Assembly (NCBI GenBank): GCA_032358255.1
Contig: JAULBX010015533.1
Location: forward strand, 124,001 to 188,000
Length of the DNA stretch: 64,000 bases
Direction of reading: 5' to 3'
From: Heterotrichella gracilis
Taxonomy: Eukaryota > Sar > Xanthophyceae > Tribonematales > Xanthonemataceae
Shown here: piece after piece, positions 10,733 to 61,393 of the stretch
Numbering within the stretch: the stretch's first letter is position 1
Layout of the letters: each line of letters starts with the position of its first letter
Translations under genes and position numbers: made by a program
The notes under the pieces: generated by a model
Told to the model about the DNA's origin: nothing
Database searches by the model: none
The model's input: the letters and a program-made list of their open reading frames with translations, nothing else

Positions 10733-13091
10733 TCACCTGTTCTTGAGCTTGAGGCGCAGGTTCTCGATGATCAGATCAGTGGCAACGTCGTTCTCTGCAC
10801 CCCTGGGAATCTGCAAAACCGCACTGACATGTGTTAGCTATAACACATGTATACTTGCCAATGCTACAGCAAAACAACGGCAGGTGACCCATTGTCCACA
10901 AGTGAACAACACCAAGGTAGCACATCACGTCCTGCAGGCTGCGTGCACACTGTGTGTAACAATTGGTCGCAGAAAGTGGTTGAGGAATCCCTCAACAGTC
11001 ATCACTCAAAATGTGCCACTCCAATTGCAATCTGATGCATAGGCAAGTCAGCACCTCAGTCACTGGTGCACCTCTAATGCTAGCAGCCCCTTGCGCTCAC
11101 TTACTATGATATCTGCATACTTCTTAGTGGGAAGCGTGTAGTTCTCAAAGCTGGGCTTGACGGTGCGCTCATACTGGTCCAGCACCTGCAGCACATCCCT
11201 CCCCCGCTGGAAGATGTCCCGCCGCAACCTGCGTTCGTGCACACCACGTGAGCGCATTGTGCTGGGCCGGACCTAAGGATGTGCACAGCAAGGCACGGCG
11301 TGAGCAATGGCCGCCCGGATGCCCACAGCGTGAACAATTAAGGCACTGATTTATTCATAGCTTACGCCCACGTCAGCCCGATGCCAAATCCTACCCTCGG
11401 TTCCCCCCTATGCTTCGACCCTACAGACCTATAAAAGAGGGCCCCTGGGGAGCGCAAAAAACTTTGAGACCCATACAGTTGTAAATAATATGTCTGCATA
11501 TGTTGCAAAGAAAGTCCATATCCAAATAGGCCACCCCATGAGCCCACCACCCACCTGCGAGCCAGCCTGGTGTCTGCGTCGGTGTCCACAAAGATCTTCA
11601 GATCCAGCAGCTTCCGCAGCTCCTCGTCGTAGAAAGCCAGGATGCCATCTGCACAAAGGCAGCAGTTGATTGAGACCAACTGGGAGTCCCAGGCTGGGAA
11701 TGTAAAGTAATTCGAAAATTATTTCAACTACTGAATAATGAGAATACTTGCAGATTTAGATTTTTGTGACCAGCAGGCGGAGGCGGCGCACACGCATCAT
11801 GAACGGCTAATATCCAAATGCAGTCATTATTTTGTGGTGGTGTCAGAAAGCCGGGGGGGTTGCTGCCAGTCCTGATAAAGCTGTACCTGGTGCCAACTGC
11901 TCGACAGCTGCATTATTATAATGAACTTACCAAACAGAATCACGTCCACCCGGGCGATGGGTGTGCGCCGCCTGCGCCTGGAGCTGGTCACAAAATTGTA
12001 CTGCGGGATCTCCACCGGCTGGCCCTTTTTTAGCGCCTTGAGGGTCTCCACAGTCTCCCGCATGTTGAAGGCCGAGGGGTGGTCAAAGTTGAACATGGCG
12101 ATGTTCACGCGCTCCTTCTGGGAGAGGTTGCGGTAGAAGCAGTCGTGGGACAGCGACAGGACAGCTTGGTGCGCCTGGGAGGGTGGCCAGGGAGGTGGGT
12201 CAATTAAATGCAATATTGGGCAGCACAAGAATGTGTGGTGGCTCTGCCAGTGGCGGTCGCAGCATGTACCATAGCATGGAAATGCATGTCTGCGTGTGGC
12301 CTCAAAACCCTAAACCCTAAACCCTAAACCCTAAACAGTGTCTGCGTGTGGCCTCACCAGGATATCTTTTTTCAAACTCTGGATGATCTTCTTGCACACG
12401 CTTGTCTTCCCTGCACAGTGCAGTGGGCCACTGTCATGTCAACCGTGCCAAGTGGTCTCAATAGGCACAAAATGTGGAGTTGGTATTTACATAAACATGA
12501 CAACAGATCCCAGCGATGCTGACATCGATGCACGTATGCTGGCTGGGCATACCCACCTGAAGCCGTTCCCCCCGAAACACCAATGATGAACGGCTCCTGC
12601 CACTCCCCACTGGAGGTGCCGGGGTCAGACGTGCCGTCGCCCAAGTACAGAGCCGCCTGCGCCACCGACCCCTTGTGCTCGCTGCCTTCCTTGCTGGACC
12701 GCTTGTGCCTGGCGGTGTCTGTGCCGCCTGAAGCACCGTTGGATGCAGCGCCTGAGCCTGCACCGCCAGGGCGTGGCGCCTTCCCACCCCGCCTGTTGTT
12801 GTTGTTGTTGGGGTTGGGGTTGGGGTTGTACCGCCGCTGCTTGACCTGACGGGGGACAGTGTCAGCGCTGGCTGGCGGTGTGGTTCCTTCAGTGGGCGTG
12901 GAGGGCTCTGGGGTTGGCTGTGGGCTGGGTGGTGGCTCGCTGGGCGCGCTGCCGCTGCTGGTGGCTAGCCATGCGGCCGCTGGTTGTGGTCGTCTGGTCA
13001 GGTGGGGTCTGGTGGCCAAGGTGCCCAGCCATTGCGTGGCCCTTGAGGTATGTGACAAGGGAGCTCCGCACAGCCTGCTCGCCCACCCCAT
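10733..13091 (-). CDS. uridine kinase (uridine/cytidine kinase family)
   Basis: P-loop kinase that phosphorylates uridine (and usually cytidine) in pyrimidine salvage. Exons are 12557-13091, 12358-12410, 11931-12174, 11555-11648, 11105-11228 and 10733-10810 (TGA at 10733-10735). Phases close, about 375 residues. The first 150 or so residues are low-complexity: Pro/Ser/Thr-rich, then an Asn-Pro and poly-Asn run, probably a transit peptide plus linker. The kinase core has the Walker A loop [13 protein letters not shown], split by a phase-1 intron between Gly and Lys. It continues with [37 protein letters not shown], a [20 protein letters not shown] block and KKYADIIIPRG. No C-terminal uracil phosphoribosyltransferase domain is present. 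The frame is open upstream to 13319; I chose the ATG at 13091. Confidence 0.93.
12288..12356. repeat. telomere-type repeat bracketed by a 17-bp direct duplication at a splice donor
   Basis: The 17-bp word GTCTGCGTGTGGCCTCA occurs identically at 12288-12304 and 12340-12356. Between them lie about four and a half CCCTAAA units (12304-12336). On the gene strand the right-hand copy contains the donor (12352-12357) of the uridine kinase exon ending at 12358. The layout is that of a telomere-sequence insertion with flank duplication. Confidence 0.95.
12790..12835. repeat. in-frame GTT/GGGGTT low-complexity run
   Basis: GTT triplets followed by three GGGGTT units encode, on the minus strand, the Asn-Pro and poly-Asn stretch of the uridine kinase N-terminal region. 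Confidence 0.8.
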
Positions 13092-44147: not shown

Positions 44148-47100
44148 TTAGTCGAAAGGGTCGATGCGCGGGTCGTGCTCCGTTGCCAGCGCCTTGCCGG
44201 TGCACAGGCAAGCAGTGCACATCACCTGCACATGATGCATACACAATGTGTGGGCCAATGACAGTCCCTCCCCTCCACCACCACCTCAGGGGGGCGCCGT
44301 GCCGTGCCGTGCACAGCACATGCATGGGATATTGAGTTTACAAGCAAGATACATGCATCCGGTATTGGCCAATGGTGTTGGCCGCAACCGCAAGGCACAT
44401 AGAGGGAGATGCACAATGCTCCCCACGTGCACTGCGCTGGGCGCCTGACCACCACACCATGCCCTAAGCACACATCAGACCCTTGCGCAAAACCCTCCCC
44501 ACCCAAACACTCAGTGTGATGCTCACCTTGCCGCTGCCTGAGCAGAACGCACATGCGTCCTGTCCCTCCACCACTCCTGTGCCCACGCAGTTGCCGCAGG
44601 TCAGGTAGCCAGTGCCCTGCAAGAGGGAGGAAGATGTGTGGGTGGTTGCGGTGTTGGGCACTGCTGTCAGAGCTGTGATGCAATGGGCAGGGCAAGGTGG
44701 GGCTGTACTGGTTGTGGTGTTTGGCAGTGCTGTGTGGTGCGCTGCATTGCGTTTCCTTGAATGCTGGTGCCGCAGGTGAGGTGGCCAATATTGGGGGTAG
44801 GGGTGGTGTTGCATACATGTAGATGGGGGCAGCGGTGGTGTTGCCGGCAAGTGCTGTGCCGGGCTGTGGTGCACTGTGCTTTGTTGTGGCGTGGTGCTTG
44901 GCGTGGTGCATGCACGAAATGCGTTGCAATTGTGCTACTCCCCCACACAGAAATTATACTGTGCGCGACACCAACAGTGCGACTTCAGGCTCTTTAGACT
45001 GCGCCATGCAGGTGCAATCTATGTGCATCCTGCAATTGTACCACCTCCCATTGGCCTGCTCCATCAGGATTTAGGGTTTACCATTGCACAGGTGTACGAC
45101 CCTCCTTGACCTCCTGCTGTAGGGTTTAATGGTTGTGTATGTAGGGCTTAGGGTTTCATACCTCGCAGTTGTACCACCTCCGCTTGTCCTGCTGCTTTAG
45201 GACTTAGGGTTTGATGTTAGGGTTTAAACTTTACAAATGTTCACCTCGCAATAGTACCGCCTCCTCTTGGTCTGCCGCTTTAGGGTTTAGTGTGTGAACT
45301 TTAGGGTGTGGCCTCTAGGGTTTCCTACCTCGCAATAGTACCGCCTCCTCTTGGCCTGCTGCTTTTAGGTCTTAGGGTTTCGTGTGGGAGTTTAGACTCT
45401 AAAAACCTCCCCCTCGCATTAGTACCGCCTCCTCATGACATTAGGGCTCAGGGTTTAGCCTGTAGGATTTCCTACCTCGCAGTAGTAGCACCTCCTCTTG
45501 GCCTGCTGCTTGGCGTTGTTTGCCTCCACTATGAGCAGCGCGGACAGCACGCCCACCGCACCCCCGCAGAAGGAGGCCACGATGGGGTCAACCTGCGCCA
45601 GCTGGGCAGGCAAATGCACAGTGCCGATGAAGTCCTTGTAGGAGGTGCCTGGGGGGTAGCGGCGGGAGCGGTTAGGTACGCCTGATTATATATGACGGTG
45701 ATTCATAGGTTGGATTTGGGGTTCATGGCCCCTGGCGGGGCAGGTGTATGGCGCCAGTAAAATTGAGGGATGCTTGGGAGGGGCGGTTGCGGGGGAGCGA
45801 TGAGGATTTGAATAAATTCGGTATTCCTTTCCTGGAAGATAGTGAATGAATAATTATTTATTGGGTTCCATGGCCCATGTCAGGAAGCGCAGAGTGGTCA
45901 TGGTTCAATTGATTTGAATATAATTTGATTTTGATATCAGGGTAAGTGATTTCCATGTACCTTGATACAAACCGACAAAATCCTCATTTGTTCCAGAACT
46001 CTATTATTTCAAATCCTCGAATTACTTTCTTATCCCATCCCACCCGTGATGCTATCATTCTAGCCAAGCGAACCCCCCACTCACCTCCCATCCCCAGCCT
46101 CACTTCCAATATTGGCGCCACCAGGCCTCCAAACAGGATGATGGACGACACCGCCAGGAAGTAAAAGTACTGGTACTGCTTGATGGTTTTGTCGGTGATT
46201 GGCGGGAAAAAGGGCAGGGCGGAGGGGTAGGGCTCGTTGCGCAGCAGGGCCTCCTTGCTGGGCTCAGCGTTCTGGTGGAAGGGGGGGAAATGCATGACGG
46301 GGAGGATGGGAACAGAGGTGTGTGCATGAATGAAAGGTTCGTCTCGCTGTTTATCGCTGTCAAGCAAGTGCAAGCAATGGGTACAAGGTCATTGTAATTC
46401 TTGTACAACACACCATGTTTCACGGCGTCTACAACACCGGCATCCATGGCATCTCCAAGCGACGCATGGCGTGTGCATGCATATAGAATGAGGGTAGGCG
46501 CCACTTGCTGCCACTGCCGTTTCCTCACCCTGCACACTGGAAGGGTTTATGGGTCATGGATGAGGGTTTGAGTGGTACCTTGAGGCGCTGCTGTATCCTC
46601 AGCCTGCGCACTTCCTCCATGAGCAGGAATATGCGGTTGCGCCTGGCCTGGATGGACAGCTCCACCTCGTCCAGTTGTAGCCGCGCAAAGTCCTGTGGGG
46701 CACGTATGCCACACTGTAAGTGCGCTGCCCTCATCACAAAAAACCCGAGTAGAATATACAGCCGAGTGGCAAATGCGTTGTGCAATGCTGACTGCTAGTC
46801 TGGCCGTACCACTGGACTGCTTGTAACTGAATGACTGAGTGTGTGAAGGCAGGAGGCGGCAGGGTGTATCATGTGGGCGATGGTGCGGGTGGCATGGCGC
46901 ACCTTGACAGACTCGCGGCTCTCGATGATGCAGAAGTTTTCCGGCAGCGCCACGCTGTCTGTGTCCTCAAGCGAGCTGCAGGAGATAAAATGAGTGTCAG
47001 TGCAAAGCATAGCCTTATATGGTCCTTGCCTCTAGGGTGCATGCTGCACAGCTGTACAGGGCAGCAGCAGGTGAGTCCTTGTACCCATGCCCATGTGGCA

Positions 47101-47435
47101 GAGGTGGAACCACACTTCTCCTTGCCAGTACAACCATGTGGCCATGCTGTATAGTGGTAGCTTCAATGGCAACTGAAGGAGTAGCAGTACCTCGCTGACA
47201 CCCGCATCTCATAGTTGTTGTCGGGCCCATTGTCATTGTTGGCTGGTAGCCCAGCCTCGGCACTGGCCCGAGTCACCACTCGGCAGTGCCCGTGCCTGAC
47301 AGCGCGCTTGATCAGGGAGTGAGTGTTGCTCGACCAGCAGGAGCAGGAGGGCCGATTGAACACGCTGTTGCGCCTCAGAGGGTCGAACACAAGGGGCCTG
47401 GATGGCCCTCTGAGGATGGCACTGTGCGCTTGCAT
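44148..47435 (-). CDS. OR: ORANGE protein (DnaJ-type zinc-finger plastid chaperone)
   Basis: ORANGE is a plastid membrane holdase that stabilises phytoene synthase and promotes carotenoid build-up. Exons are 47191-47435, 46903-46975, 46579-46692, 46085-46271, 45476-45648, 44527-44616 and 44148-44225 (TAA). Phases close, 319 residues. Residues 1-80 are a Ser/Arg-rich transit peptide. Then come LPENFCIIESRESVK, RRNRIFLLMEEVRRLRIQQRLK, two membrane segments (YQYFYFLAVSSIILFGGLVA and FCGGAVGVLSALLIVEANN), and the DnaJ-like Cys-rich domain. That domain has CYYCEGTGYLTCGNCVGTG, CAFCSGSGK and VMCTACLCTGKALATEHDPRIDPFD, the near-invariant OR C-terminus. The third-from-last and second-last exons flank an 860-bp intron filled with copies of the exon edge. 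Identification is certain. Confidence 0.97.
45020..45475. repeat. tandem degenerate copies of an ORANGE exon 3' end with its splice donor, mixed with TTTAGGG units
   Basis: The genuine exon tail plus donor lies at about 45470-45515. Downstream on the gene strand, inside the intron, are copies starting at about 45411 (short), 45324, 45243 and 45160, and a diverged one at about 45028, with a remnant near 45092. Spacing is roughly 65-85 bp. The copies at 45324, 45243 and 45160 still read approximately KQQAKRR.YYCE or KQQDKRRWYNCE followed by a GT donor. TTTAGGG-like words fill the gaps. Confidence 0.93.
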
Positions 47436-48368
47436 GGCCAGATGCTTTGGGGACCAAGTCCCTGACTGAAATGCTTGAGACGGGTCGAACCAGGAGCACG
47501 GATTTAGCCAACCCAGTTGGAAGCTGCAGTTGGGTAGTCCAGAGTGGTACTGGTAAGTGGGTATTGCTTCCGAAAGGTTAGCTCACAAAGGCTGAGCACA
47601 TATAACGCAGATGGTAACACCCAAGCCACAACCAATAACGAGAAAGAGTAATAAGCCCAAATGTTTCCACCGGGGCGTTAGGGGGAGTTTTGTGCCATCC
47701 ATTACTGGTTCAAGGCGCCACTCACCGCCACCCCTTATCTTTACAGTCCCTTCACCCTGATCTGCAATTGTCACCTTGGAAAATACACAGCGAAAAAGGA
47801 AAAGAATTTGGAAACCGTTTTGAGGCAACCGTTGTCGCCACAATAGGCTAAAGATGCAGCTTTCGTGGGTATCACAGTGATAGTTGAGTACCAACCATCT
47901 ATCTGGCTCTGTCAAGCTATTGAAGTCTCAGCGGATCGTTGTACATTGCGAACCAACAACCTTTTTCCCGCCACTTCACCTCGCTGATCTCACACCGACA
48001 CACCGACACTTGCTATCAACAATACCTGGGTCCATACGCAAACGTTTCAGCTGTGCTTGGCAGTTCTTGTTCTCACCCGTCCACAGAGCAACCTATCAGT
48101 AGCGACAGAAACCCCATTTGGGTAGTGGCACAGTGCAAGCTCTGGCTGTGAACAAAACTGTGGAACGTTATGCGGAGTTTCTCGTATAACTAGTACTGAG
48201 ATCAGTCAACAAGGCTGGTACAAGTGTGTTTGGGTATCCTACAGCGCCCTTGCTCTCCTATTGCATGCCTGGCTAAGCCCCAGTGCAGAGGCACACCTTG
48301 CCAAAGTTGCAGCGGTTGGAGACTCGCCCATAAGCTTTACCAACCCCGAGCTTCCAAGTCAGATTACC
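47436..48368. other. divergent intergenic region
   Basis: Promoter interval between ORANGE (-) and the coiled-coil gene (+). The coiled-coil frame is open back to 48261. No other coding frame is supported. Confidence 0.5.
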
Positions 48369-50628
48369 ATGGTGGACATAGCTCAGCCTAGTAACTATGG
48401 GATGGACGCCCACTGGTCAGCTGAAGACGAGGCAAATATCAACATGAGCGAAGAAGAGTACCAGGTACAGGCTTGGACTAAAGACCTAGGCACCCAGCAG
48501 TAGGCACCCAGCAGCAAGGCAGTCTCTTGCCAACCGTTAAAGTGATGTTTTTGGACCAATGTATCGTATTGGACCAACGCACAGGACTACTGCTCAGCTG
48601 CAAGTCACCAATACCAACACCTATTGTGTGCAGGCCTATGTGCAGGAGCAAAGCACATACCTGCACTCCAACGGCCACCCAGGCCCCAGCTACGACGCAC
48701 ACAACCAAGGGACACCCACTGCATTCTCCCCTTCAGTACTGGGCCAGCCATCCCACATCACACCCATCGCCCACACCACCGAAGTGGCAGCTGTGCTGGA
48801 CGACATGATCCACCACACGACGCACCTGGAGCAGCGATTTGAGGGGCTGGCTGAGGAGCTGGCGGCAGAGGTCAACAGAGAGCAACAGCACCTGCTGCTC
48901 ATGCAGGAACAGGTGGGCCTAAACCCTAAATTCTAAACCCTAGCTACACACCCTAAACCCTCATCCTGACCCTAATTACATGTGCACACGCACCCTAGCT
49001 ACAGCATGTTGAGCTTCAAAAGGCTGGCTGAGGAGTTGGCGCAGAGGTCAGCAGGGACCACCAGCACCTGCCGGAAAAGCGTGCACACATGCCCAAAACC
49101 CTGAATCTTAAACCCTAACCTTCAACCCCAACCCTTGACCCTAAACCACGTGTGCACACACCTAGCAACAGCACCTGCAGAGACAGGTAGGCACACACAC
49201 CCTAGCCTGAGGTAATAAGTTTGCATAGCAGCCTCTGCAGACCCCCTCTGCTTTTGACCAAATTGACACCCGCTGCACCGGTGCACCCCGTCCCACTTGA
49301 CAAGCAGGGTGCAAAGAGTATCCTGCTATAGGTGATATTGGACCTCAAGAGACAACGCAAGTGGAACTTGCCCAGCGCGCATCCATACAGCCATCCATAC
49401 ACCCCTGCATAGAACCATTCCCCCGCAGCACCTTCTCCATTCCCCAACACCCTCCCACTCCACCCTCCTCCCCGCTTCACCCCCAGGTAGACAAGCAGGG
49501 TGCGGTGCTGCTCAAGGAGATGGCTGACCTCAAGAAGCGAATGGATGGGGAGCGGGCCCAGCGCGCCTTCATGCAGCGCACGCTGGTGGAGTCGCGGGAG
49601 CGCATGGCGGAGCGCCTGGAGGCGCAAGACCAGGAGCTGATGGAGCTGCGGCGCAGGATGGAGGTCATGCAACTGCCGTGGCTGCAGCGGGTGATGGTGC
49701 AGGTGGGGGCGAGGGGAGGAGTGTGAGGTGGATTGGAGAGTGGAGGTGTGCAGCGGTGGTGCATATTGGTGGGGTGGGTTGCTTCCACAAACGGTGGTGG
49801 CTACATGATCAGGAGCTGATGGAGCTGCGGAGGAGGTTGGAGGTGATGCAGCTGCCGTGGCTGCAGCGGGTGATGGTGCAGGTGGGGGCGGAGGATTGCG
49901 TTTAGGACTTGTGAAATCATGGAGTAATGTTTGTAAACAACTGCAAATCCTTTTTTGATTAATCTTTTCTGATTCTTTTGTGACTTTTTTTAGAGTTTTG
50001 TGGTGGACGGGAGGGTGGGGGTGTCCAGCGGTGGTGGTGGTAGTATGTGTTGGTGGGGTGGGTTGCATCCACAAACGGTGATGGCTACTGGACCATGAGC
50101 TGATCGAGATGTGGTGGAGCATGGAGGTCATGCAGCTATCGTCGATGCAGCATATGGTGGTGCAGGGATGGGCGGGGTTGGGGTCCACCGGTGCTGGCGT
50201 TACATTTAATGTTGCATGCTGGTTCCAAGGTTGCATCCACCGGCAGTGGGCACGCGCCAGACAGTCCTGTCATTCACAATTACGATATGCAGATCAATAT
50301 AGCGTATCCGCAGGGAGTCAGTTTTAAAATTCCGCCTCGGGCAAATACATTCAATTGTAAAATTTTGCAGCATTATTTTGGGCCAACCTGTATCGCCAGT
50401 ACGGTATTGACTTGTTGTTTGGTTTTGCTGCAGGTGGGGATGCTGCTGACATCGTGTACAGTGTGGCCACAAGCGCGGGTGGCGGGGGTGGGCGGGAGGG
50501 GGGCATTGGAGTACCATGGGGTGGGGGGGGAGGGGGGGGATATGGAAGGGAGGGTGAGCGGGGAGGGGTCAGGGGCGCTACAGGTGGAGAGGGGGACGGA
50601 GGGGGAAGAGGTGATGAGCCGCAGCTAG
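48369..50628 (+). CDS. coiled-coil protein of unknown function
   Basis: I do not recognise this protein. Proposed exons are 48369-48464, 48634-48912, 49487-49702 and 50434-50628 (TAG). All junctions are phase 0, about 261 residues. The first exon is acidic (AEDEANINMSEEEYQ), the second is Ser/Thr/His/Pro-rich and then helical (VAAVLDDMIHHTTHLEQRFE). The third is a strong Arg/Glu-rich coiled coil (KEMADLKKRMDGERAQ, ERLEAQDQELMELRRRMEV). The last is Gly-rich and G-rich in DNA, so its frame is the weakest part. The introns after exons 2 and 3 contain decayed copies of the preceding exon's 3' end, so some copies could be used as alternative exons. ATG at 48261 is a possible earlier start. Confidence 0.6.
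48917..49190. repeat. copy of an exon 3' end embedded in telomere-type repeats
   Basis: Bases 49018-49072 repeat the tail of the coiled-coil gene's second exon (genuine copy about 48841-48901; shared words GGCTGGCTGAGGAG and CAGCACCTG). It is flanked on both sides by CCCTAAA-type runs (48917-48960 and 49095-49146) and by repeated GTGCACAC..CCTAGC words. Confidence 0.88.
49806..50170. repeat. two intronic copies of the coiled-coil exon 3' end
   Basis: The genuine exon end is 49629-49702. A first copy at 49806-49881 keeps the reading frame (DQELMELRRRLEVMQLPWLQ) and the GTGGGGGCG donor. A second, decayed copy lies at about 50091-50160. The intron-side sequence after the donor (GGTGGGGTGGGTTGC, then CCACAAACGGTG) is repeated too. 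Confidence 0.9.
50448..50610. repeat. G-rich low-complexity tract
   Basis: Multiple G-runs on the plus strand, including runs of seven or more, with quadruplex-forming spacing. It overlaps the proposed last exon of the coiled-coil gene. Confidence 0.85.
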
Positions 50629-50714
50629 GGAAGGCACGGGGATTGTACCTCAGCATAAATGGATGCGATTGTGTCGGCAGCTTGGGCAGGGTTGCATATT
50701 TTTTTGAAGCGTTT

Positions 50715-50935
50715 GGATGCACGATGGTTGAATATCATTGGTTGCGTTGCTTTCGCGCCCCCGCATAATGAATATTAACGGAACTAGTAAGAAATAAGAA
50801 CACAGACATGCAATATTATGCGACAGCGGCGTGTAGCTAGCCTGGATACTGCTTTGACCAGTTGGACGACACATTTTTATTTAAAGTTTAATAAATATGT
50901 GGCATGTTTGCAAGGTGGTGATGTGCTGTCCTAAG
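50715..50935. repeat. dispersed repeat, copy 1 (paired with 55118-55340)
   Basis: Shares ordered blocks with 55118-55340: GCTTT.GCGCCCC..GCAT..TGAAT, ATATTAT, TGTAGCTAG..TG, GACCAGTTGGA, TTTTATTT and GGCATGTT. Both copies lie shortly downstream of a plus-strand unknown gene. I estimate moderate (about three quarters) identity over the aligned blocks. Confidence 0.75.
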
Positions 50936-50984
50936 GTCAGCTTGGGTCAATCCGCACTTCTTAAGTATAGCATATGACAGCCTA

Positions 50985-52085
50985 TTAGGCTGACGGAGAA
51001 CTTTGGGAAGTTGACGATTGCAATCCCATGTCAACACTTTGACAACTCAGACGACGTTCCATGGCACTGCAACAATTATAGTGGTGACGTCGTGCAAGGG
51101 GAAGCAGCCACAGTAACAACACACAGACTCTGGGCAACAGCTGCGCACACCAGCAACCCCACCAGAAGCGACAGAGGGGCAGGTCCAGGGCAGGAAGGGC
51201 AGGCAAACCGCAGTGTGGGTACTTTTCAGAACTTCTGTTTGACACCGTGCAAGCCCTTTGCAAGTGGACCCAGGCCCATACGAGTGTGCACCACTTACAG
51301 TTCTTCAATGTATATGTCCAACCACAAAAACTTCTTTTTGAGCACCTCTGCGCGCACTTCGGGAGGCATCGTTGCACAGCGGTGGCGCATTTTGAAGCGA
51401 TACAGGGGGTCAGTGCTGGGCGTTGGAACAGCCGGTGGGGTGGAGGGAGTGGTGAACTCCGCAGCGATGAGCTCTGTGGTGGCCCTGGCGTAGTCTTTCA
51501 GGAACTCGTCGTAAATACGGTCCCTGTGCACCGAGGAAAGCATCCTTCAGAAGCAAGCCCTTCAGCAGCCAGAGCTGGCACCTTGCAAGGGAAGCAGCCA
51601 CAGTAACGCCACACAGACTCTGGGCAACAGCTGGGCACACCAACAATCCCCGACAGAAGCAACACACCCAGGTCCCTGCAGGTCCCTACAGGATACAGGG
51701 GCAGGCAAACGGCACTGGGTACCTTATCTGCCCCAAGGCAGGCGCTTTGCGTGTGGCACCATTGTGCACCCAGAGCGAGCACTTTTGATACACCATTGTG
51801 AACCCAGGCCCATATGCACCCACTTACATCTCTGCAATGTGTTCGTCGGAGTGCCCTTCCGCCTTGAGCACCTTTGCGCGCCTACTGGGAGGCATAGTTG
51901 CCCACATGTAGCGCTCTTCGAAGGTGTCAGGTTGGGGGTAGTCGTCGTAGTCCTCAAAACCGCTGGCCAGACTTGGAGGTGCGCGGCGGGAGGGGGGCTC
52001 AGCAGCCGGCTGGTTGGAGGAAGTGGTAGAGTGGTGTCGGTCTGGCGCGCACCGGGTCTTCGTGCTGAGCTTCCTTGCAGAGACC
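50985..52085 (-). CDS. unknown protein with tandemly duplicated exons (5' end not found)
   Basis: I do not recognise this protein. Three consecutive exons fit in phase: 51828-52085, 51299-51523 and 50985-51066 (TAA). The first ends with a module RYMWATMPPSRRAKVLKAEGHSDEHIAEM. The second ends with a diverged version, RHRCATMPPEVRAEVLKKKFLWLDIYIEEL. Each module is followed by the same donor (GTAAGT) and similar intron sequence. The first exon also has a Ser/Thr/Pro-rich region and an acidic DYDDYPQPDTFEERY patch. The true start is unresolved; MASLVLSPPICTRAVLR (about 52279-52331) looks like an N-terminus but its donor phase does not match. Confidence 0.55.
51080..51880. repeat. about 500-bp tandem duplication of exon plus intron
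   Basis: Bases 51093-51176 and 51584-51666 are close copies, sharing GGGAAGCAGCCACAGTAAC and ACACAGACTCTGGGCAACAG. Exon ends at 51299-51390 and 51828-51905 match in protein (ATMPP..R..VLK) and in donor. The offset is about 490-530 bp. Confidence 0.9.
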
Positions 52086-53403
52086 CTGCACCGTGAGAAA
52101 ACATGTACATGGGTAGCATGAGAAGGAAACTGAGAAAGTCCGCAAATGCACTGGGAGAAATAAACCCACGCAATAAACTTGCCGCAGCTACACTTCTCAA
52201 GCAAAGCACATACACACAAACACCAGTTTTGTGTTGCACAGGCTGCGTGAACACCACATGCCAGCACGGGGTCCCCACTCACCCCGAAGCACCGCCCTTG
52301 TACAAATGGGCGGTGAAAGCACGAGGCTCGCCATATCTCCACGATCAACACAAACGTCGATTTTCCTATCTTCACCACAGTATCTTCATGCCTGTTGTGT
52401 GTCTATTCTCCCCACAGTTTCTACCCACTTCAATAAGTTGCCAAAGGATGCATGCATGCATCCGGTGATTCACCAATACAGTCCTTTTGTGGAGAAGCCA
52501 GCCAAATGCGTGCAGTTAAATTTGACCGATGTAAGGTGATGCAACGGTTCTGATCCAGGAACCTGCAGGTCCAGCCCTAAGGGGCCATTCTGTATGTGTC
52601 ATGCATGCATGCATGCATCCTTTGTGGGCAACTAATTGAAGTGGGTAGATACTGTGGTGAAAATAGAAAAAACGACTTGTGTGTTGATTGTGGACGGCAG
52701 AAACTTGCACTCACGTGCGTGGTTTCAAGGCCGTGCTTCACGGTGAAGTCCTAGCCGTCGACAATTGGGTATGCATTAGACGGGACTGTGCGTGCACCAC
52801 TCACGCACCACTACTTACACTACTACTACTCGAAAGTTTGAAACATTGTGTTTGAAAAAGGTCCTCGGCACCAGTTCCTCCGCATGTTTGCTTGCATCGT
52901 GTGCTGTTTGGCGACATTTCCTGCAGGTAACCCACGAGCTGCTTGTGTGGGTGACTAGGTGCACGTGCACCTCACCAGGTGGCCAGGGCAACCTCTGGGG
53001 CCTGCTGCTGACACAGTGGTAACCTTACACCCCCAGGTATGCTGCTTTGTTTCCCGCCTTCGGCTGCCACCTCGCCTGTTGCCGCCGGGCATCCCCCGTC
53101 CCTATTTTGTTTCGTATGTTCAGGGTTGCCTCCTGCACGTGTGCTACTTGTCCTGTGACACAGTACTAGTACAGGTGCACTTAAGCGCATCGCCCATCAA
53201 GCAGTTTGCCTGGTTTGCCTCCTTCCTCGTGCTGGTTCATGTTTTCCTCCATTTGGGTTCTGGCTGTATCCCTGCGGCTGCCTTTGCAGTGTGGTGGCCT
53301 CCTTTGGTGTACTGTTCCACCCTCCCTGTTGCCAGTTCTGCAACCCTAGCCTTAATCCATATGCGCAACCCCAGAGGCCGTCTTCACTTGCTGTTGCAGA
53401 GCC
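52086..53403. other. unassigned region with an inverted repeat
   Basis: No gene model is secure here. A long hydrophobic plus-strand frame (about 52959-53555) has no family resemblance. The inverted repeat at 52.33-52.70 kb is listed separately. Confidence 0.45.
52327..52705. repeat. inverted repeat, arms about 85 bp or more
   Basis: The right arm, 52605-52700, is on the opposite strand nearly the same as the left arm, 52327-52465. Shared words are GATCAACAC, TTCACCACAGTATC, TACCCACTTCAAT, AGTTGCC and AAAGGATGCATGCATG. The left arm has an extra internal segment of about 35-40 bp. Relatives of the arm lie at 21285-21362 and 21700-21750, so this looks like a small mobile-element family. Confidence 0.85.
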
Positions 53404-54233
53404 ATGTCACTGTCCAAGTGTCAGCTGTCAACATTCCAGCATGCCGGAACGCTGCACACCGCCTCCTTGGGTGTCCGCATGGTCGCAAGGCCTCCCATGG
53501 CCAGCAGCAGCGGGCGGCCAACGCCGAGAAACAAGCCATCGATGTCGACGACTAGGCCATCAGCCAGCAGCAGCTCACAGATACTGGTGAGTGATATACC
53601 GTGGCTCCACCGGTCCTGCCAAGTGACATGGAAGTTGACACCATGGCGTGGTGTTGGTTGTATATGCACTGGGCTCCCTGCGCAGGACTGGTCCGGGGAA
53701 GGGACCTGAACCCTTAACCTTAAACCCTAAACAGTACTATGTTCCCTGCGCAGGAGGACTGGTCTGGGGAAGCACGTCTGCTAGAGGCTCTCTAGGCCGG
53801 TATCTACGCTGCCTCTGATGTGTCTGCAGCTTCTGTTCCAACTTGGAAGCAGGTGGCGACTTATTTTGCTACTGGCTTTTGAGCCCTTTTGCCCCTAATG
53901 TAGTAGGCTGGCCTTTGTGGCAGCAGGTACGTGACCCGCATATACACACCCACTTAAACCCTAAACCCTAAAACCTAATCCTGGCACACTTTAGCTGAAC
54001 GTCTTTTTTGCCTTGAGAGACACATGATACAATTGTGAGAAGCCATGGGACGTCTATGAGACCCTCTTTTCATAGTATTGTTACGAGCAGGCTGCAGTCT
54101 TTGGAGGAGGAGCAGCTGCCATGGGGGTGCTGCTGCTCACTGTTGAAGCCTGCACACCTTAGCTGAACGCCTCTTTTTGCCTTGTTATTATATACACTTA
54201 CAAGCCTTGTCACAAACCCTAAACCCTAAACAG
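53404..54233. other. region with possible exons and duplicated splice-site segments
   Basis: A plus-strand frame 53404-53592 (Ser/Arg/Pro-rich, ending at a GTGAGT donor) could be a first exon. Downstream, an acceptor segment CCTGCGCAG..GACTGGTC..GGGGAAG occurs twice (53671-53699 and 53748-53773), separated by CCCTAAA-type sequence. An exon-like segment at 54088-54143 recurs at 54234-54290. Telomere-type runs lie at 53705-53733, 53953-53972 and 54212-54230. No single gene model could be closed. Confidence 0.5.
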
Positions 54234-54840
54234 GCTGCAGCCTTTGGAGGAGGAGCAGCTGCTATGGGGGGCTGATGCTCACTGTTGAAGCCTGGATAGA
54301 ATGCTGGCAGGACGCACAGCTGGAGAAGGGCTTGGAGACAGTGTTCAGGGTTGCAGCAGGCATCCTAGCTGGCGAGCGGGCCATCTTGGTGAGCCCCGAG
54401 CAATTTATCTCACATTTATCTCATATCTCGTCATTTATCTCTCACCTTGTGTCATCATTGATCTTCCTGCGGCAGCTACTTCAACACTGCTAACACCAAC
54501 AAACCAAGACCGCCAATATCGGGTTTGTGATGGGGTGTGGGTGCTGTCTACAGGTGTTAATTTACGAGGACCTTTTTCTATTTTATTATAAAATTTGTCC
54601 ACGCCATCAATTTTCCTGCAGGTGTTCATATACGAGGATCAGGAGCTCACCACATGTATCACCAAGTCTGTGAGGGAGCTGGAGGAAGGCGCCGGCGGCA
54701 GCACCATGGCAGTGCCCGAGTGCGCGCTGGAGGGGCCGCCATCATACACCACCAGCTGCGTCCTGGTCTTTGTGGAGTTTGAGCTGATTTACGGGAACCG
54801 GTGCGAGATTGAGGGCTGGGGTGAGCAGACGACAGCCTGA
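54234..54840 (+). CDS. unknown protein, C-terminal exons only
   Basis: Two exons join in phase: 54234-54388 and 54622-54840 (TGA). The encoded part reads LMLTVEAWIECWQDAQLEKG, VFRVAAGILAGERAILVFIY, EDQELTTCITKSVRELEEG, then SCVLVFVEFELIYGN to the end. I do not recognise the family. The upstream exon was not found; the acceptor at 54231-54233 implies a phase-1 partner. The segment upstream at 54088-54143 is a copy of the first exon's head in a different frame (GGGAAAMGVLLLTVEA). The current exon has probably lost a base relative to that copy. Confidence 0.45.
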
Positions 54841-55011
54841 CGCAAGTGAAAGCCATCCACATGCACTTGGCCAGGAGGTAGGGCCAGGGTGCTGTTCCGT
54901 GAGTGAGTGTCGTTGATATCTTCCCTTTTGCTTCCATGGGCTGGGGTGTGCGCTACTGGCACACGTTCAGCTGGTGATGAGCGCTGTTGGTTCTCTTGTT
55001 TGGGGTCGCCA

Positions 55012-55184
55012 GCAATATGTGGGGCGCAAAAGCAAGGCAAGTAATGCCTACCCAATCAACCTGGCATCCAAATTTTAACAGAGGTTGATTCAAGATCTGT
55101 TCTTGACTTGAGATCTGTTGGATCTGGATGCGGGTTGATTGGGTAGGCGTTAATTGCTTTGCTTTTGCGCCCCGCATGTTGAAT
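55012..55184. mobile_element. MITE-like foldback element
   Basis: Two arms of about 60 bp are inverted copies: left 55018-55078 (GGGGCGCAAAAGCAAGGCAA, then CCTACCCAATCAACC), right 55118-55176. A spacer of about 40 bp with a smaller AGATCTGTT repeat separates them. There is no coding capacity. No clear target-site duplication was seen. The right arm continues into the dispersed repeat shared with 50.7 kb. Confidence 0.75.
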
Positions 55185-55340
55185 AGCGGAAGCACTACCA
55201 GTATCAATAAAGAAAACATTAACGCATATTATTATATTGTAATGGCATTTGCCATTATGTAGCTAGACTGAATCATGCTGCTTTGGACCAGTTGGATGAC
55301 ACGTCTTTTATTTTTATAGGCATGTTCAAGGGTGGCAATT
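55118..55340. repeat. dispersed repeat, copy 2
   Basis: Counterpart of 50715-50935. It includes the right arm of the foldback element and the TGTAGCTAGACTGAATCATG / GACCAGTTGGATGACAC block. Confidence 0.75.
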
Positions 55341-56076
55341 TGCCCTCCTCGCTACAGGTAACTGGCACACTTTATGCACCACATGTTGTGCATGCTGATG
55401 ATCTGGCACTGCCCTGATGCATGCGAAGAACACCTGTGTGGTTAAGCACACGGTGGAGCATCGTAGCGGCTATTTGAGAACAATGGTCCTCACCAAAATG
55501 CCCGGCATCTTGGTGAAGATCCTGGCTACAAGGTGGTGGTCCAACTTGTGCTTCACCACTCAAAATGCATGCACACCCTATGGTGGCATGCATGTTTTTG
55601 TTTCGCTCGCGGGGTAGCAACCTTGCAAAATATGTTGCAGTACGTCAACCAACCAAAACAATTGGTGCCTTACTGATGTAATACCAATAGAATAGCAAGC
55701 AGACTTCAGGTTTAATCCATCGTCTAGGTTTTGTTGAACAAAACCTGATTCGAATTCATAACAGGTCACTGCATGTGAATGATTGCAAATTTGATTCATG
55801 GTGCACCATGGAAGTCCATCATTCATCGTGATAATTATGTTAACACCTGGTGGTCCATCCATCCGAGGAGTTTGGGCAATTAACAATTCCATCATATGCG
55901 CCGTGAATGACAGGCATTGAAAGATGAACGGCTGCTCGGCACTATCAAGCATCGAGGCCACTTGCCGTGGTGCTGAAGCATTGTCATTTTGGACCAGTTT
56001 GAGACTATTCAGCATTTCCAGTTCCCATTGGGCCGCTTGATAAACCCAGGCATTTCCCCTCCAGGCTGCGCAGCCC

Positions 56077-59000
56077 TTAGCGCCTCTGCCAGTTGATGAA
56101 GCTCAGCCCTGACCAGGCAGCCGTCAGGAACACCCCGATGAAGATGGTCTCATACCCCAGCTGCGCCCACTCGCTCTTGCCCACCATGTCAAAGTACTGG
56201 AGGGCAGTCTGGTCCCCAGTGAGCAGCGGGTCCCCAGCCGCCTTGAACTGGTTAATGACCAGGGATCCAAATGCGTAGCGCAGGAAGTTGAGGTAGGTGA
56301 ACCAGTACCAATACCTGGGGGCGCACACCATGAATAGTCAGTTTAGTTGTTGGTATAAAACATCTATTCACATGATTCACATTGATGCATTTAACAATGA
56401 TGACACGTTGAACAACGTAATAAGCCATCAAAACCGGAGGGTTTTGACAGTGCCATGTACACCCTAAACCTTAGGGGGTATGGCCCTACGCGGTGCATGG
56501 CTCACCTTGGCATCTGGTTGAAGGTTTGGATGCACCCCGCAAAGAACAGGAGGATGGTGACGTAGGCTGGGCACAGGGCATTGGCCACGTGGAGGTTGGG
56601 GGAGATGGAGGCCACAAAGTAGGCAAGCACTGCGCAGAAAGGGACATGAGTCGGCTGATTATTGCGGTACATGCTCCTTAGCAGTGAAGCCATAGCAGCA
56701 GTCACAGTTGTAGTGCAGACGTCACCATTTCCTGAGTTTACGACCCTAAACTCTAAACCCTAAACTGTATACAATTCAAGGTTTGTGACCAGGGCTGGGT
56801 GAGATGATTGCGCCAACAAAATAGGCAAGCACAATGCAACAAGGGGCATGCAATTACAGCACCCTGCATGGCCCAAGTGAGATGCATCCAAAAACACTGG
56901 CAACATGCCATGCACACTTGTGCCAGAAGCTGTGGCATTCTGCACCACCTTCGATTCTGTTGAACACCCATGGGTTGAAATTACACCCGCATGTTTACGC
57001 CCCACGTTGCATGCATACATCCACTCACCCACTCCCACAAACATGGTGACGAAGTACACCAGCCAGAAGCTATGGGGTTCTGCAACACCTTCAATTCATA
57101 TTTAAACCCCACATTGCATGCGTGCGCCCACTCACCCACTCCCACAAACATGGTGACGAAGTACACCAGCCAGAACACGATGAACTGGCCCTGCAGGCTG
57201 GTCATGAACCACACAAAGGTGGCAAGCAACAGGCTGGTGAGGCCGTTGATCATCAGCTCCTCCACCATCTTCATCGCGAGGTAGGTCACGGGGCGGTACA
57301 GGCCGTCGTTGCGCTCCCTGGGATGATGGGCAGAGAGGGGGGGATGAGAGGGGGGGGATGTGGTGGCCCTTAAAATACAGTGGGAGGAGGGAGTGGTGGT
57401 AATGGGAGTTTGTGATGACAGGGCGGCAAAGGGTGTGTAGGGTTTTTGTGTCAGGAAGGTGTTTCGTCGGCTAGGGTGCAATAAACAGTGTATGGTCCCT
57501 TTTCCAGGCAACTAACACTGACGAAAAGGACAAAATGCGATGCGAGCCAGTACAATGGCGACATGCAGTGCCATCCCCCCCCCACCCACCCACACCTCAC
57601 CCACCACCACTCAGCATGATCTCCACCACATCCAAGAGCAACAGGCTACAACCCCAACGGGTAAACAGGACAGGGGAGGGAGCTCTCACCAAAATGCGAT
57701 GAAATCCAGCACGATGGCGACACACCGGTGTTATTCCCACCCAGCAACCCATCCACCCCACACACACCAACGCTCAGTCTGATCTCCATCACCACCAAGA
57801 GCACAGGCTGACCTCAATTGCTAGAACAGCAGGGAAGGGAGCTCTCACCTGGTGTACAGCGCCCTGTCCAACACAATGGACGGCACGTAGCTGACCGCGC
57901 CATAGCTGGGCAGCACGATGTACATGAACAGTAGGTTGGCTGTGTTGATCACGTCCTGTTTGGCGTAGTTGTTGCCGATGCTGAAGTACAGAGTGGCCTG
58001 GATGAAGCCAAAGATGATCTTGTCACCGATGCGGGCGCCCAGCCAGTTGGGGTCTTTGTAGTCGGTGGGGAGGCGGTACTGCGGGGTGTGTGGAGGGGGA
58101 GGGTTCAGCAGGTGATAGGGGGTTAGTGATAACGGATAGTGGATATGGAATCAGTATGAGGTAGGGGCGGGGCAGGCGGTGGTATGAGCGGAGGGGGGAG
58201 GAGGTCTGGATGGACCCAAAGAGATGATCTTGACCTTGATACTGCAAGCACCGTCTCGCTCGTCACACATGCAAAACTCCAGCCCTCAACCCTCCACCAC
58301 CCACCATGCCACCCTGAGCAGCGCCCACTGCGCCCACCAGGCCGGCGTCACAGTCTCGCTCCTCACGCACACACTTCAAAACCCTAAATCCTAAACCCTT
58401 AGGCCCCCTTCACCTCGAGCAGCACCCACAGCACCCACCAAACCCTAAACCCTGAACCCTAAACCCTAAACTACCTTAAACCCCCTTACCCTGAGCAGCA
58501 CCCACAGCGCCCACCATGACGGGGTGACCGTCTCGCTCTTCACCCCCAGCTGCTCCAGGGTGCGCTCGCTCACTCGACTGCCCTCCTGCAGGTACTGTGC
58601 CACGTGGCGCTGGTTGGCGGACTGCAGCTCGGAGGCCGCATAGGCATCCACAAACTTATTGCCCTCGCCCTGGCGATCGGCCTGCGCAGGGTTTGGATAA
58701 GGGTTGGAGTGAGGGTTTGGTTAGGGTTTGGGGGTTTCGATGAGGGTTTGGGGGGCGGGCATAGATGGCCGCCTGCATAAGGTTTGATAAGGGTTTTCAT
58801 GTGAGGTGCATGGTTTGTACTTGACCTAGGTGTAGGTTGTCAACCACGGTTGTGAGCACCGCTTGTGCCACCATCTACGTTCCCCACCTGAAAAACACCC
58901 AATAAACCCCTCACCCAGATCCTCACTCAGACTGTGCATTGAAAGATAATGGCCACCCCTACCTGTGTTGTGAGGTCCACGATCCAGTCAGCCATGTTCT

Positions 59001-61393
59001 CCTTCCCTGCCTCATTGAGGGGGTTGGTCCCTGGGAGCCCCTCAAAGTAGTGCTGGGCAGTCTTGCCTGCAGGAATTGAGGAGAGTTGTGGAATTAGTGA
59101 GCATTTTGACCGTTCACTTTATCCCCTGTGAGCCACCATTTCAGGCGCTCAGCATGACATACATGAGGGATGCGACGAGTCAACACAGCAATTTGTGCAC
59201 GCCAGCATGTGCCTTGATTCAGCCAAACATTCACCAAGCAGGACATTTTCTTTCAAAATGTAAACGATGCCCGACCTTACACAACTTGGGGGTGTGGTTA
59301 GTGGGTATGGGTGGTGCGGAACAGAGCCTCTTAATGCCATACCAACCCATTTTCCCATCCCGCCACCCACCGTTTTCTCCAAAGTAGATTGTCCTCCCCC
59401 TGAGCAGCATGAGCACGCGGTCGAACATGCGGAAGGTGTAGGGCGTGGGCGAGTGGATGGTGGCGCAAATGGTGATGCCGCTGGCAGTGAGGGTGCGCAC
59501 CACTGTCATGATCTGAAGGGGGGGCAAGGGGAGGTGGGGGTGAGTGAGGTGTACATGGGGCAAAACTGTGTTGACGATGGAGAGGGTTTAGGGTTCAGGG
59601 GAAGGCAGCAAGGGAGGCAATGCCACCAAAACATTTTCAGGTGCACATCATCTGCTCACCTTTCTGGCAGTGAAGCTCTCCAGCCTCGTGATTATTTTGG
59701 GCCATATGGATTTTGCATGGAAATCATTATGCCCGTGATTGCATTCAACAGCACCATTACAGTATATTTGGGGTGCCCAACACCAAGGGTAATAAAAAAA
59801 TGAAATAGGAATACAGTCCTGTTGGGGTGTTAATACCATCTCATTACCCTTGCCGCCACCCGCTCACCTCGTTGGCAGTGAAGCTGTCCAGCCCCGTGGT
59901 TGGCTCATCCAGGAACAGAACCCTAGGGTTTGTGACCAGGGCAATGCCCACGTTGGTGCGCTTGGCCTGGCCCCCCGAGATGCCCTTTGCCATATCGTTC
60001 CCGATGCGGATGTCTCTGCACTGCTCCAGACCCAGGCGGGCGATGGTGCTCTCCACCAGCTCCTTCTTCTTTTCCAGGGGCATTGACAGGGGGTTCTTGA
60101 GCTCGGCAGTGTACAGGAGCATCTCGTAGACGGTCAGCGTGGGGATGAGGGTATCTGCGCACAGGGGGAGGAAATCACTTGGCAATTAGCATGAAACAGG
60201 TTTGTGCAGAAAGGCGGCAGTTGGAGTGGTGCATAGCTGTCTCATGAAACCCAAGTCTGCTGGGAAGGAAGTATCAGAGCAGTGGGGTTGCATCAGGGTA
60301 CAACAACGCAGTCCAAATGCATATTGTACAAGGATATCTGGGAAGGGCTGTTTCTAGACATGATATGACCGCATGACACGACCGCTGCTTGTGACTGCGG
60401 TGCGTACTCAACTGCCAGCCCCGGGCTCAGGCCAACCTCATGCAGAGGCCTGTGCACAGGTGCTGGAAAGGGTAACATGGCTGTGCGCAACACACATCAA
60501 AAGCCCAATGGCCTTACCAAACTGCTCCACGTAGCCCGCATAGCGCCGCAGGAAGGTTTGGGTGGCCACCTGCCCCGAAAATCGGAGTGTGCCGTCCAGC
60601 TTGCCCACGGTCTTGCGTCCAGCCAACACGTCTGCAAGTGGGGGGAGGTAGTGAGGATATAGGGTTGTGGCTAGGGTAAAGTAGTCAGACGGACCTTGCA
60701 CATAAACGGCACAGGTGCGCTTGCGTGCAAGGGACAAGTGATGGCTTTGTGAGGTGGGTTATGGGCTAGGAGTAGGATTCAGACCAGGTGGGGACGGTTA
60801 ATAAGTATAGGAGGAATGACACGCCTGCGCCAACTAGGATTAGGGTGCCACTAGTGCTGCCTGTAAAACAGGCGCGTGCGCAGTAGAGCAGGATGGGTTT
60901 TGCTTGCAAATGTGATGGTAATACAGGCCTGTGGTGAGGTTCCACCGCAAAACACTTACCGAGGAGAGTGGTCTTTCCCGAACCGCTGGGCCCCATCTGC
61001 ACCACAGATGGCGGTAGGTTAGCAGCAGGGTTCGAAATAACAGTGCCTGCATTGCCGTGAGAGCCAGGAGACCTCACAAACGGCAGACGTACCAGAGCGG
61101 CCATCTGACCGGGGTTGAAGAAGCCCGTGACCTTGTTGAGCAGCTGGATCTTCTCCTTCTTGTTGTTGCTGTTAACCACTGTGTAGGTGAGGTCCTGTGG
61201 GCGGACAGGGTTCGAAGCAAGTTAGGTAACCCCCACAGGGCGGCACAAGCCCACACCATAGACGGGGAATTGATACACCGCAGCGCACCTGGAACGCAAT
61301 CCGCATCCCGTGCAGAGACTCAACCCCGTCATACGCTCCATCTTCGACGCTGAGCTCTATATCGGTACTGGCCACCTTGTTTGACTTCGTCAT
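56077..61393 (-). CDS. ABCG-type half ABC transporter
   Basis: Half-size ABC exporter with the reverse order (nucleotide-binding domain, then membrane domain) typical of ABCG/WBC proteins; these export lipids, sterols or xenobiotics. Twelve exons: 61289-61393, 61093-61194, 60960-60996, 60518-60631, 59868-60154, 59371-59512, 58963-59066, 58490-58681, 57849-58078, 57136-57317, 56506-56629 and 56077-56314. Phases close, about 618 residues. Walker A MGPSGSGKTTLL (about 70-81) sits alone on a 37-nt exon. Next are DVLAGRKT, GISGGQAKRTNVGIALV (signature, about 178), VLFLDEPTTGLDS (Walker B and D-loop) and TICATIHSPT (H-loop). The membrane domain runs from about residue 365, with FIQATLYFSIGNN, VWFMTSLQGQFIVFWLVYFV, ANALCPAYVTILLFFAGC and a WYWFTYLNFLRYAFGSLVIN block. 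The substrate is unknown. At least five introns carry copied exon edges. Confidence 0.96.
56744..56850. repeat. copy of an ABCG exon head, next to telomere-type repeats
   Basis: Bases 56781-56850 resemble 56593-56645, the acceptor end of the exon 56506-56629 (shared GAGATG, CAACAAA/CCACAAA, TAGGCAAGCAC and GGGACATG/GGGGCATG). CCCTAAA-type units lie at 56744-56766 beside it. Confidence 0.85.
56925..57180. repeat. tandem copies of an ABCG exon 3' end with donor
   Basis: The genuine exon end and donor are at 57128-57180. The same sequence, identical through the exon part (WLVYFVTMFVGVG), recurs at 57021-57067 with its donor. Intron sequence after it (CCAGAAGCT.TGG..TTCTGCA.CACCTTC.ATTC) recurs at 57063-57098 and 56930-56965. 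The unit is about 107 bp. Confidence 0.93.
57532..57848. repeat. two tandem units of about 159 bp in an ABCG intron, each ending in a donor copy
   Basis: Unit 57532-57690 and unit 57691-57848 share AAAATGCGATG, then GGCGACA, then a CAG.ATCTCCA..CAC segment, and end in GGGAGCTCTCACC. On the gene strand the second unit's end is the genuine donor of the exon ending at 57849. The first unit carries a copy of that donor. Confidence 0.9.
58249..58545. repeat. three to four copies of an ABCG exon 3' end separated by CCCTAAA runs
   Basis: The genuine exon end is 58490-58545. Copies lie at 58311-58366 (CCCTGAGCAGCGCCCACTGC, to CTCGCTCCTCAC) and 58411-58440, with a fragment at 58249-58266. Telomere-type CCCTAAA runs fill 58377-58400 and 58439-58471. 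A degenerate GGGTTT-rich stretch lies in the next intron at 58690-58760. Confidence 0.92.
59580..59690. repeat. copy of an ABCG exon 3' end and donor, with a telomere-type remnant
   Basis: Bases 59654-59690 copy the exon end and donor at 59862-59898 (GCTCACC, then TGGCAGTGAAGCT.TCCAGCC). On the gene strand it reads LESFTAR before a GTGAGC donor, against LDSFTANE in the real exon. A GTTTAGGGTTCAGG word lies at 59585-59598. Confidence 0.92.

Follow-up and report, generated by a model that had tools for sequence, protein, structure and literature searches.

How introns lengthen, and why some lineages have long introns, is an open question that is often answered with transposons. A 64,000-nucleotide stretch of the alga Heterotrichella gracilis (contig JAULBX010015533.1, positions 124,001 to 188,000; G000:C156:124001-188000 in our numbering, hereafter the window), within a genome of 68.5 Mb in 903 contigs, poses this question at close range. 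Introns of three of its genes contain copies of their own exon edges, which an earlier note attributed to a recurring local process that copies splice-site-spanning DNA and leaves decoy donors. What kind of process would build such introns? The answer we favor, at a probability of roughly 0.6, is that introns lengthen by recurrent repair of staggered breaks, often with telomeric filler.

The sample comprised 264 kb of this one genome (the window plus C2:1-200000) and 28 small loci. Genes were modeled by a purpose-written gene finder for which the window and C2:1-200000 (L009-L028) served as training sequence; exons were predicted without RNA. The resulting splice consensus was CAG/GTRNG for donors and TGCAG/G for acceptors. 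Under stricter settings, the models closely matched the hand-read exons of the ORANGE-like, coiled-coil and ABCG genes of the window, with errors in that the ABCG gene was extended into its neighbors and a copy in the coiled-coil gene (49813-49881) was called an exon, placing the start of the intron 49703-50433 at 49882. The splicing of the ORANGE-like gene agrees with an alignment to six homologous proteins in the conserved part; the closest named sources of its protein are Micractinium, Myrmecia bisecta and Chlorella (69-74% identity over 71-77% of the protein), and one metagenome protein matches at 91%, similarities that mark the source as a trebouxiophyte-like green alga. The ABCG protein carries the Pfam families ABC_tran and ABC2_membrane, and no Pfam family was found for the coiled-coil protein. 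From 381 introns we used the 347 of 80-1500 bp (median 307), dropping 34 outside that range. The edge test took 60 bases from the end or start of each exon, aligned them within the intron adjoining that edge, and called a score of at least 18 a copy; exon pieces shorter than 15 bases scored 0, yet were counted among the 347 introns.

The copies in the window are real, being direct repeats by self-BLAST that the gene models place at exon edges (Table 1). Among the 28 introns used beyond 44 kb, six hold a donor-edge copy and two an acceptor-edge copy at a score of at least 18; the earlier count of at least seven introns is thus borne out for six with a donor edge, and is reached only by adding two weaker ones. 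In the ORANGE-like intron 44617-45475, five copies score at least 17, with 83-92% identity and GT at the homologous place in three of the five; the copies form an array with 84/168-bp periods, and six CCCTAAA-sense runs lie in the same intron. The coiled-coil intron 48913-49486 also holds an acceptor-edge copy (49299-49350) and telomere runs from 48916, and no telomere motif was reported inside 49703-50433. In the ABCG gene, the intron 56630-57135 shows a second, decayed donor-edge copy by eye, an acceptor-edge copy (score 19.5) and a telomere run near 56753; in 58079-58489, telomere runs (58377-58401 and 58436-58473) are interspersed among the donor-edge copies; and in 57318-57848 an exon match was not found by edge alignment. 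The unknown region at 53.4-54.3 kb contains a direct repeat, as the earlier note had it. Scoring of candidates for a second copy of 57849-58681 revealed no allelic one; the other 53 matches are short and mostly over the telomere run. Beside the ABCG gene, on the minus strand, there is also a tandem duplication of ~500 bp of apparent whole exons (51264-51397 / 51798-51923 and 51080-51173 / 51571-51664).

Table 1. Copy-bearing introns and related features of the window (positions counted from its first letter).
Feature	Position	Strand	Detail	Basis
ORANGE-like gene intron	44617..45475	-	repeated exon edge 45476-45511 with donor	self-BLAST, edge alignment, homologue-consistent splicing
Copies in the intron 44617-45475	45413-45437, 45329-45364, 45245-45280, 45162-45197, 45032-45060	-		edge alignment
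Weaker copies in the intron 44617-45475	45089-45126, 44887-44915	-		77% and 69% identity
Source exon of ORANGE-like gene	45476..45648	-	donor at 45475	gene model and homologue alignment
ORANGE-like gene intron	46272..46578	-	borderline donor-edge copy 46504-46538 (score 17.5)	edge alignment
Coiled-coil gene intron	48913..49486	+	exon-edge copies 49030-49071 (score 29.5), 49164-49195 (16.5)	self-BLAST, edge alignment
Coiled-coil gene intron	49703..50433	+	copies of exon edge and donor, 49822-49881 (92%), 50106-50165 (77%)	hand model
Unknown region	54088..54294	+	direct repeat 54088-54152 / 54231-54294; telomere run 54211-54233 preceding second copy	self-BLAST, flank test
ABCG intron	56630..57135	-	donor-edge copy 57029-57068 (40/40)	self-BLAST, edge alignment
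ABCG intron	57318..57848	-	tandem copy 57531-57690 / 57690-57849 from donor on, purely intron sequence	self-BLAST
ABCG intron	58079..58489	-	donor-edge copies 58413-58440, 58313-58371, 17-bp fragment 58250-58266	self-BLAST, edge alignment
ABCG intron	59513..59867	-	one donor-edge copy 59665-59693 (90%)	self-BLAST, edge alignment
Intron outside the range first reported	9198..9552	+	50-bp unit (CAGGTACATGAGCT and telomere run) repeated twice	self-BLAST, reading of telomere runs
Intron outside the range first reported	12175..12357	-	32-bp telomere run between 18-bp direct repeats	reading of telomere runs

Across the 264-kb sample, 29 of 347 introns contain a copy of their donor edge (upstream exon) and 22 of 347 a copy of their acceptor edge (downstream exon), versus 1/347 and 0/347 for the reverse-complement control. 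Other introns of like length matched at 1/2082 donor and 0/2082 acceptor edges, and the far exon ends at 0/203 and 0/215. The excess over chance is therefore genuine, and copying is repeated within some introns, as the earlier note had held; the comparison it named as able to refute the claim, namely exon-edge matches no commoner than controls, was made on the 264-kb sample rather than the whole genome and left the claim standing. The pattern also extends beyond the window, as 23/256 donor and 20/256 acceptor edges are copied in C2 alone. Two stricter gene-model sets gave 32/269 and 31/235 copied donor edges and 21/269 and 20/236 copied acceptor edges (reverse complement: donor 2 and 2, acceptor 0 and 0; swapped donor: 3/807 and 3/705). 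Some exon-edge copy is present in 44 of 347 introns, which are longer than the others (median 383 vs 299), and in 0/31 first introns. Intron starts are copied within the intron in 16/288 cases and intron ends in 12/288 (reverse complement 1 and 0), and intron middles, which were compared only with the intron half downstream of the middle, in 4/288.

Local direct pairs numbered 121 after filters (10 of 136 pairs were dropped as mostly telomeric or low-complexity; near-duplicates were also removed, as was any pair separated by over 900 bp), versus none after each sequence was Markov-shuffled once. By class, 65 pairs are exon-intron, 28 intron-intron, 27 exon-exon and 1 intergenic, where the 27.8 kb called intergenic takes in untranslated regions and the exon-exon class may conceal exon-intron pairs. 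The exon-intron share among exon-intron and intron-intron pairs is 0.70, versus 0.43 under uniform placement, and it is greater below 80% identity (40/51 pairs) than above (25/42), indicating that exon conservation accounts for part of the exon-edge excess. The exon-edge preference is thus partly ascertainment. In addition, the copying of donor edges only, which the window had suggested, was ruled out by the copied acceptor edges; since these are joined by 28/121 purely intronic pairs, splice sites are not the sole target. Recurring local copying of splice-site-spanning DNA accordingly stands as a process far above chance, and the part of the earlier claim that tied it to splice sites needs this restriction. 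The five inverted local pairs are an undercount because palindromes with arms reported as a single stretch were skipped, and we therefore did not use the direct-to-inverted ratio as evidence. The window shows four such palindromes of 32 to ~270 bp (9889-10037, 34052-34083, 52402-52667 and 55013-55181); 52426-52583 matches 21597-21751 inverted, and some palindromes may be small foldback elements.

The copies are 0-30% diverged, in keeping with the graded decay described before. GT is retained in 12 of the 22 donor copies reaching the edge (7/29 copies fall short of it); many copies do keep GT, but fewer than the 15.7 expected from their identity. For acceptor copies reaching the edge, AG is retained in 11/20 versus 13.3 expected, with 2/22 falling short. 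Retention is no greater than neutral decay predicts, and the preservation of decoy splice sites, including the decoy donors of the earlier note, was rejected.

The earlier note saw the copies and overlooked the telomere-repeat filler, which is the best clue to mechanism. CCCTAAA was taken as the telomere unit because contigs C70 and C140 begin with it. The genome holds 429 exact telomeric 24-mers (including overlapping matches and contig ends), versus 0 for the reversed pattern. In the sample, interstitial telomere repeats (ITS) are nearly restricted to introns: fuzzy telomeric 14-mers number 111 intronic, 1 exonic and 2 intergenic, in both orientations (56/55), whereas four control units gave 10-18 intronic matches each. 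A telomeric 14-mer is contained in 69 of 347 introns, with the motif present in 22/44 edge-copied introns versus 47/303 others (length-stratified odds ratio 4.5); a control unit is also somewhat enriched in edge-copied introns (4/44 vs 10/303, P 0.087), and among the shortest introns (80-250 bp) ITS occur in 0/5 of those with edge copies.

The repeats are in excess just after donors. In 32 of the 69 ITS introns the ITS starts within 40 nt of the donor, versus 11.0 expected (3-fold; maximum 23 in 2000 simulations), and of the 14 introns containing the control unit, 3 have it close to the donor. Twenty 1-kb loci (L029-L048) were also chosen in list order because each has a perfect (CCCTAAA)4, irrespective of any copies, with places at contig ends or already sampled passed over; the run lies in a predicted intron at 17/20, and 7/15 perfect runs with a known donor are within 40 nt of it. 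Near acceptors, ITS are found in 15 introns versus 10.9 expected (P 0.10). Because ITS detection is independent of exon conservation, the clustering argues for a real donor bias. Donor-proximal ITS are balanced in orientation (18 C, 16 G), whereas acceptor-proximal runs are mostly in the CCCTAAA sense (12/15); selection may disfavor TTTAGGG, which contains AG, near acceptors. The telomere motif is scarce in first introns (1/31 vs 68/316 of other introns); this scarcity, shared by edge copies, could be genuine or could stem from poorly predicted first exons.

Telomere runs also lie between the copies. At C2:189655-190082, the exon edge with its donor continues into CTAAACCCTAAACC, after which the final 49 bases of the exon recur at 92% identity. 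In a flank test, the flanks of each ITS, with telomere letters masked, were matched to each other, leaving out ITS less than 150 bp from a sequence end. Direct repeats flank 59 of 159 sites (L029-L048 21/39, L002-L008 5/12, C2 21/84, window 12/24), versus 0/159 with the right flank reverse-complemented, 0/694 with swapped flanks and 55/693 at random intron points. Within the ITS-bearing introns of the sample, flanking repeats occur at 23/98 ITS versus 14/266 places elsewhere, and in ITS-free introns at 16/471. The gap between copies holds telomere sequence in 26/79 local pairs versus 4.3 expected (control unit 2), and 25/67 duplication clusters have telomere sequence in their span versus 7.1 expected. 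The other 42/67 are without the motif, indicating that the filler is not obligatory or that it decays. Neither overlapping pairs nor several ITS in a single intron are independent, so the ratios are safer than tail values.

The duplicated stretch, X, is 25-100 bp long at 39/44 sites. Three exon-edge copies with ITS between them are found in L041, which we take from its peptide, recognized without a search, to be a DDB1-like gene; L040, presumably Sec61-beta-like on the same grounds, has acceptor-edge copies with an ITS after each, and the layout of L042, L043 and L033 is similar. In L029 (ITS ~490-524) and L047 (487-520), X copies with only 72-73% identity flank a perfect telomere run (33-34 bp), so that the run seems younger than the duplication or has been kept pure relative to it. 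At tight junctions, drawn from 44 per side, at least one base is shared in 5/10 on the would-be priming side and 6/7 on the other; with so few junctions, and with base sharing no more frequent on the priming side, they give telomerase priming in particular no support.

We propose that a staggered break in or beside an intron would be resealed after fill-in, duplicating the stretch X between the nicks, and that telomere repeats would often enter as filler, converting A-X-B into A-X-ITS-X'-B. If the duplicated stretch takes in an exon edge together with the splice site, its outer copy would still serve as exon, and the inner copy, with its splice site and the ITS, would become intron and then decay. 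Arrays of three to six copies could arise from repeated events or from later copying of the X-ITS unit, and the present data are compatible with either. Where the filler consists of telomere runs, telomerase or captured telomere ends are its suggested source. From these patterns we infer the staggered breaks, telomerase as a filler source, the order of events and transcription-linked breakage behind the donor bias. Against this reading stand the clusters lacking a telomere motif, the 0/5 among the shortest edge-copied introns, the mild enrichment of a control unit in edge-copied introns, the junctions, and copies that look older than the ITS beside them, as in L029.

Slippage or unequal exchange might instead yield X-X', with telomere repeats as later, independent insertions or expansions that are commoner in unstable introns. 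The clusters without a telomere motif, the regular periods of the ORANGE-like array and the ITS that are purer than their flanking X copies would all fit such a course, which we regard as possible though unlikely, given that ITS lie between copies and not elsewhere in the same introns. A related account holds that tandem duplications occur everywhere, without a special tie to splice sites, and that those overlapping exons stay recognizable through selection on one copy. The exon-intron shares in both identity classes against uniform placement, together with the purely intronic pairs, lend it some weight; it leaves the 3-fold enrichment of ITS beside donors, not matched by the control unit, and the single pair in the sequence called intergenic unaccounted for, and as the whole explanation we consider it improbable.

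The same donor-proximal excess would be expected if telomere motifs were functional elements, telo-box-like regulatory sites or splicing enhancers, under selection beside donors. The nearly equal orientations there, the depletion in first introns and the flanking duplications, which selection on a motif leaves unexplained, make this very unlikely. Introns might also have been born by tandem duplication of AGGT-containing exon segments, as papers by Rogers and Hellsten reportedly propose, here with telomere filler. In the Sec61-beta-like L040 (G000:C59:45100-46100), in-register comparison of exon end with intron end, and of intron start with exon start, gives matches at 17/26 positions outside the splice consensus, where at least 16 matches are expected 0.05 times in 406 introns; with its telomere-joined copies, this intron is our sole newborn-intron candidate. 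Across the 406 introns, however, the in-register mean is 6.50 of 26, versus 6.53 for swapped sequences, 0/659 comparisons reach an identity of at least 0.65, and many copies include a splice site plus intronic sequence from an intron already present. The in-register tests thus led us to reject edge-copied introns as newborn AGGT duplications except for L040, and as a general account we give this birth model very little credence. An assembly artefact from collapsed or chimeric reads, for which an assembly in 903 contigs might give an opening, is barely credible in view of the graded divergence, the units differing locus by locus and the recurrence in many contigs.

Repair of staggered breaks with telomeric filler thus remains our preferred reading. 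A more far-reaching version, which we put forward only tentatively and think unlikely, is that breaks concentrated just downstream of donors, perhaps through transcription, undergo telomerase-linked repair that continually drives intron growth and occasionally intron birth (L040), with telomere repeats as its regular raw material. In either form, each duplication would be a repair scar unique to its locus, with decay as a clock and often a telomere label, so that duplication, filler, decay and splice-site competition could be traced in one genome. The donor-side clustering makes a link of transcription or splicing to DNA breakage directly testable, and the copies are natural experiments on spliceosome choice among duplicated donors.

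Introner elements are repetitive sequence common to introns at different loci. In the alga, by contrast, X is private to each intron, as the matches to other introns and the swapped flanks indicate, and only the telomere filler is shared. In mammals, ITS are inserted during double-strand-break repair, as described in the available text of Nergadze et al. 2007 (PMC2246262) and of a study of human and horse (PMC7215372). Judged against empty orthologues, plain duplications are given there for 6/130 rodent, 4/25 primate and 3/66 horse sites (plus 2 horse sites in a complex class), and human ITS lie in introns about as often as chance (31%). Both systems have short telomere runs at internal sites with direct target duplications at some of them, for which the accessible part of the horse paper (PMC7215372) invokes staggered breaks; the algal ITS differ in being flanked at 59/159 sites, mostly by 25-100 bp and judged without empty orthologues, in their near-confinement to introns and in their clustering at donors. 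New introns of Daphnia contain internal direct repeats in 55/90 cases, read in the available text as repeated staggered breaks that lengthen introns, and have adjacent exon-end repeats of 4-12 bp, with no "telomer" in the main text (PMC4202315). Intron direct repeats and exon-end repeats are thus common to both, whereas the algal copies span tens of bases, often with splice sites, and are often telomere-joined.

Intron gain by tandem genomic duplication of AGGT segments, covered in a review (PMC3443670, in part), likewise duplicates a splice-site-bearing segment; that model predicts new introns whose two borders carry in-register copies, whereas the alga, L040 excepted, looks like existing introns lengthened. 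Direct repeats of 4-30 bp (mean 11.4) flanking whole introns were read by Rogers and Bendich 2025 (PMC11782384, in the portion available) as scars of mobile-intron insertion; both kinds of repeat lie at or near intron-exon borders, but the algal copies carry one edge into the same intron. We found no report of telomere-filled duplications in algal introns in the literature searched, most subscription papers being beyond its reach, and the available parts of PMC12633428, PMC8226300 and PMC6410037 hold nothing on telomere-filled intron duplications. Taken together, each ingredient is already known elsewhere and the combination and frequency look new; what distinguishes the alga is the frequency of the duplications, the length of X, the copying of exon edges, the near-confinement to introns and the donor bias.
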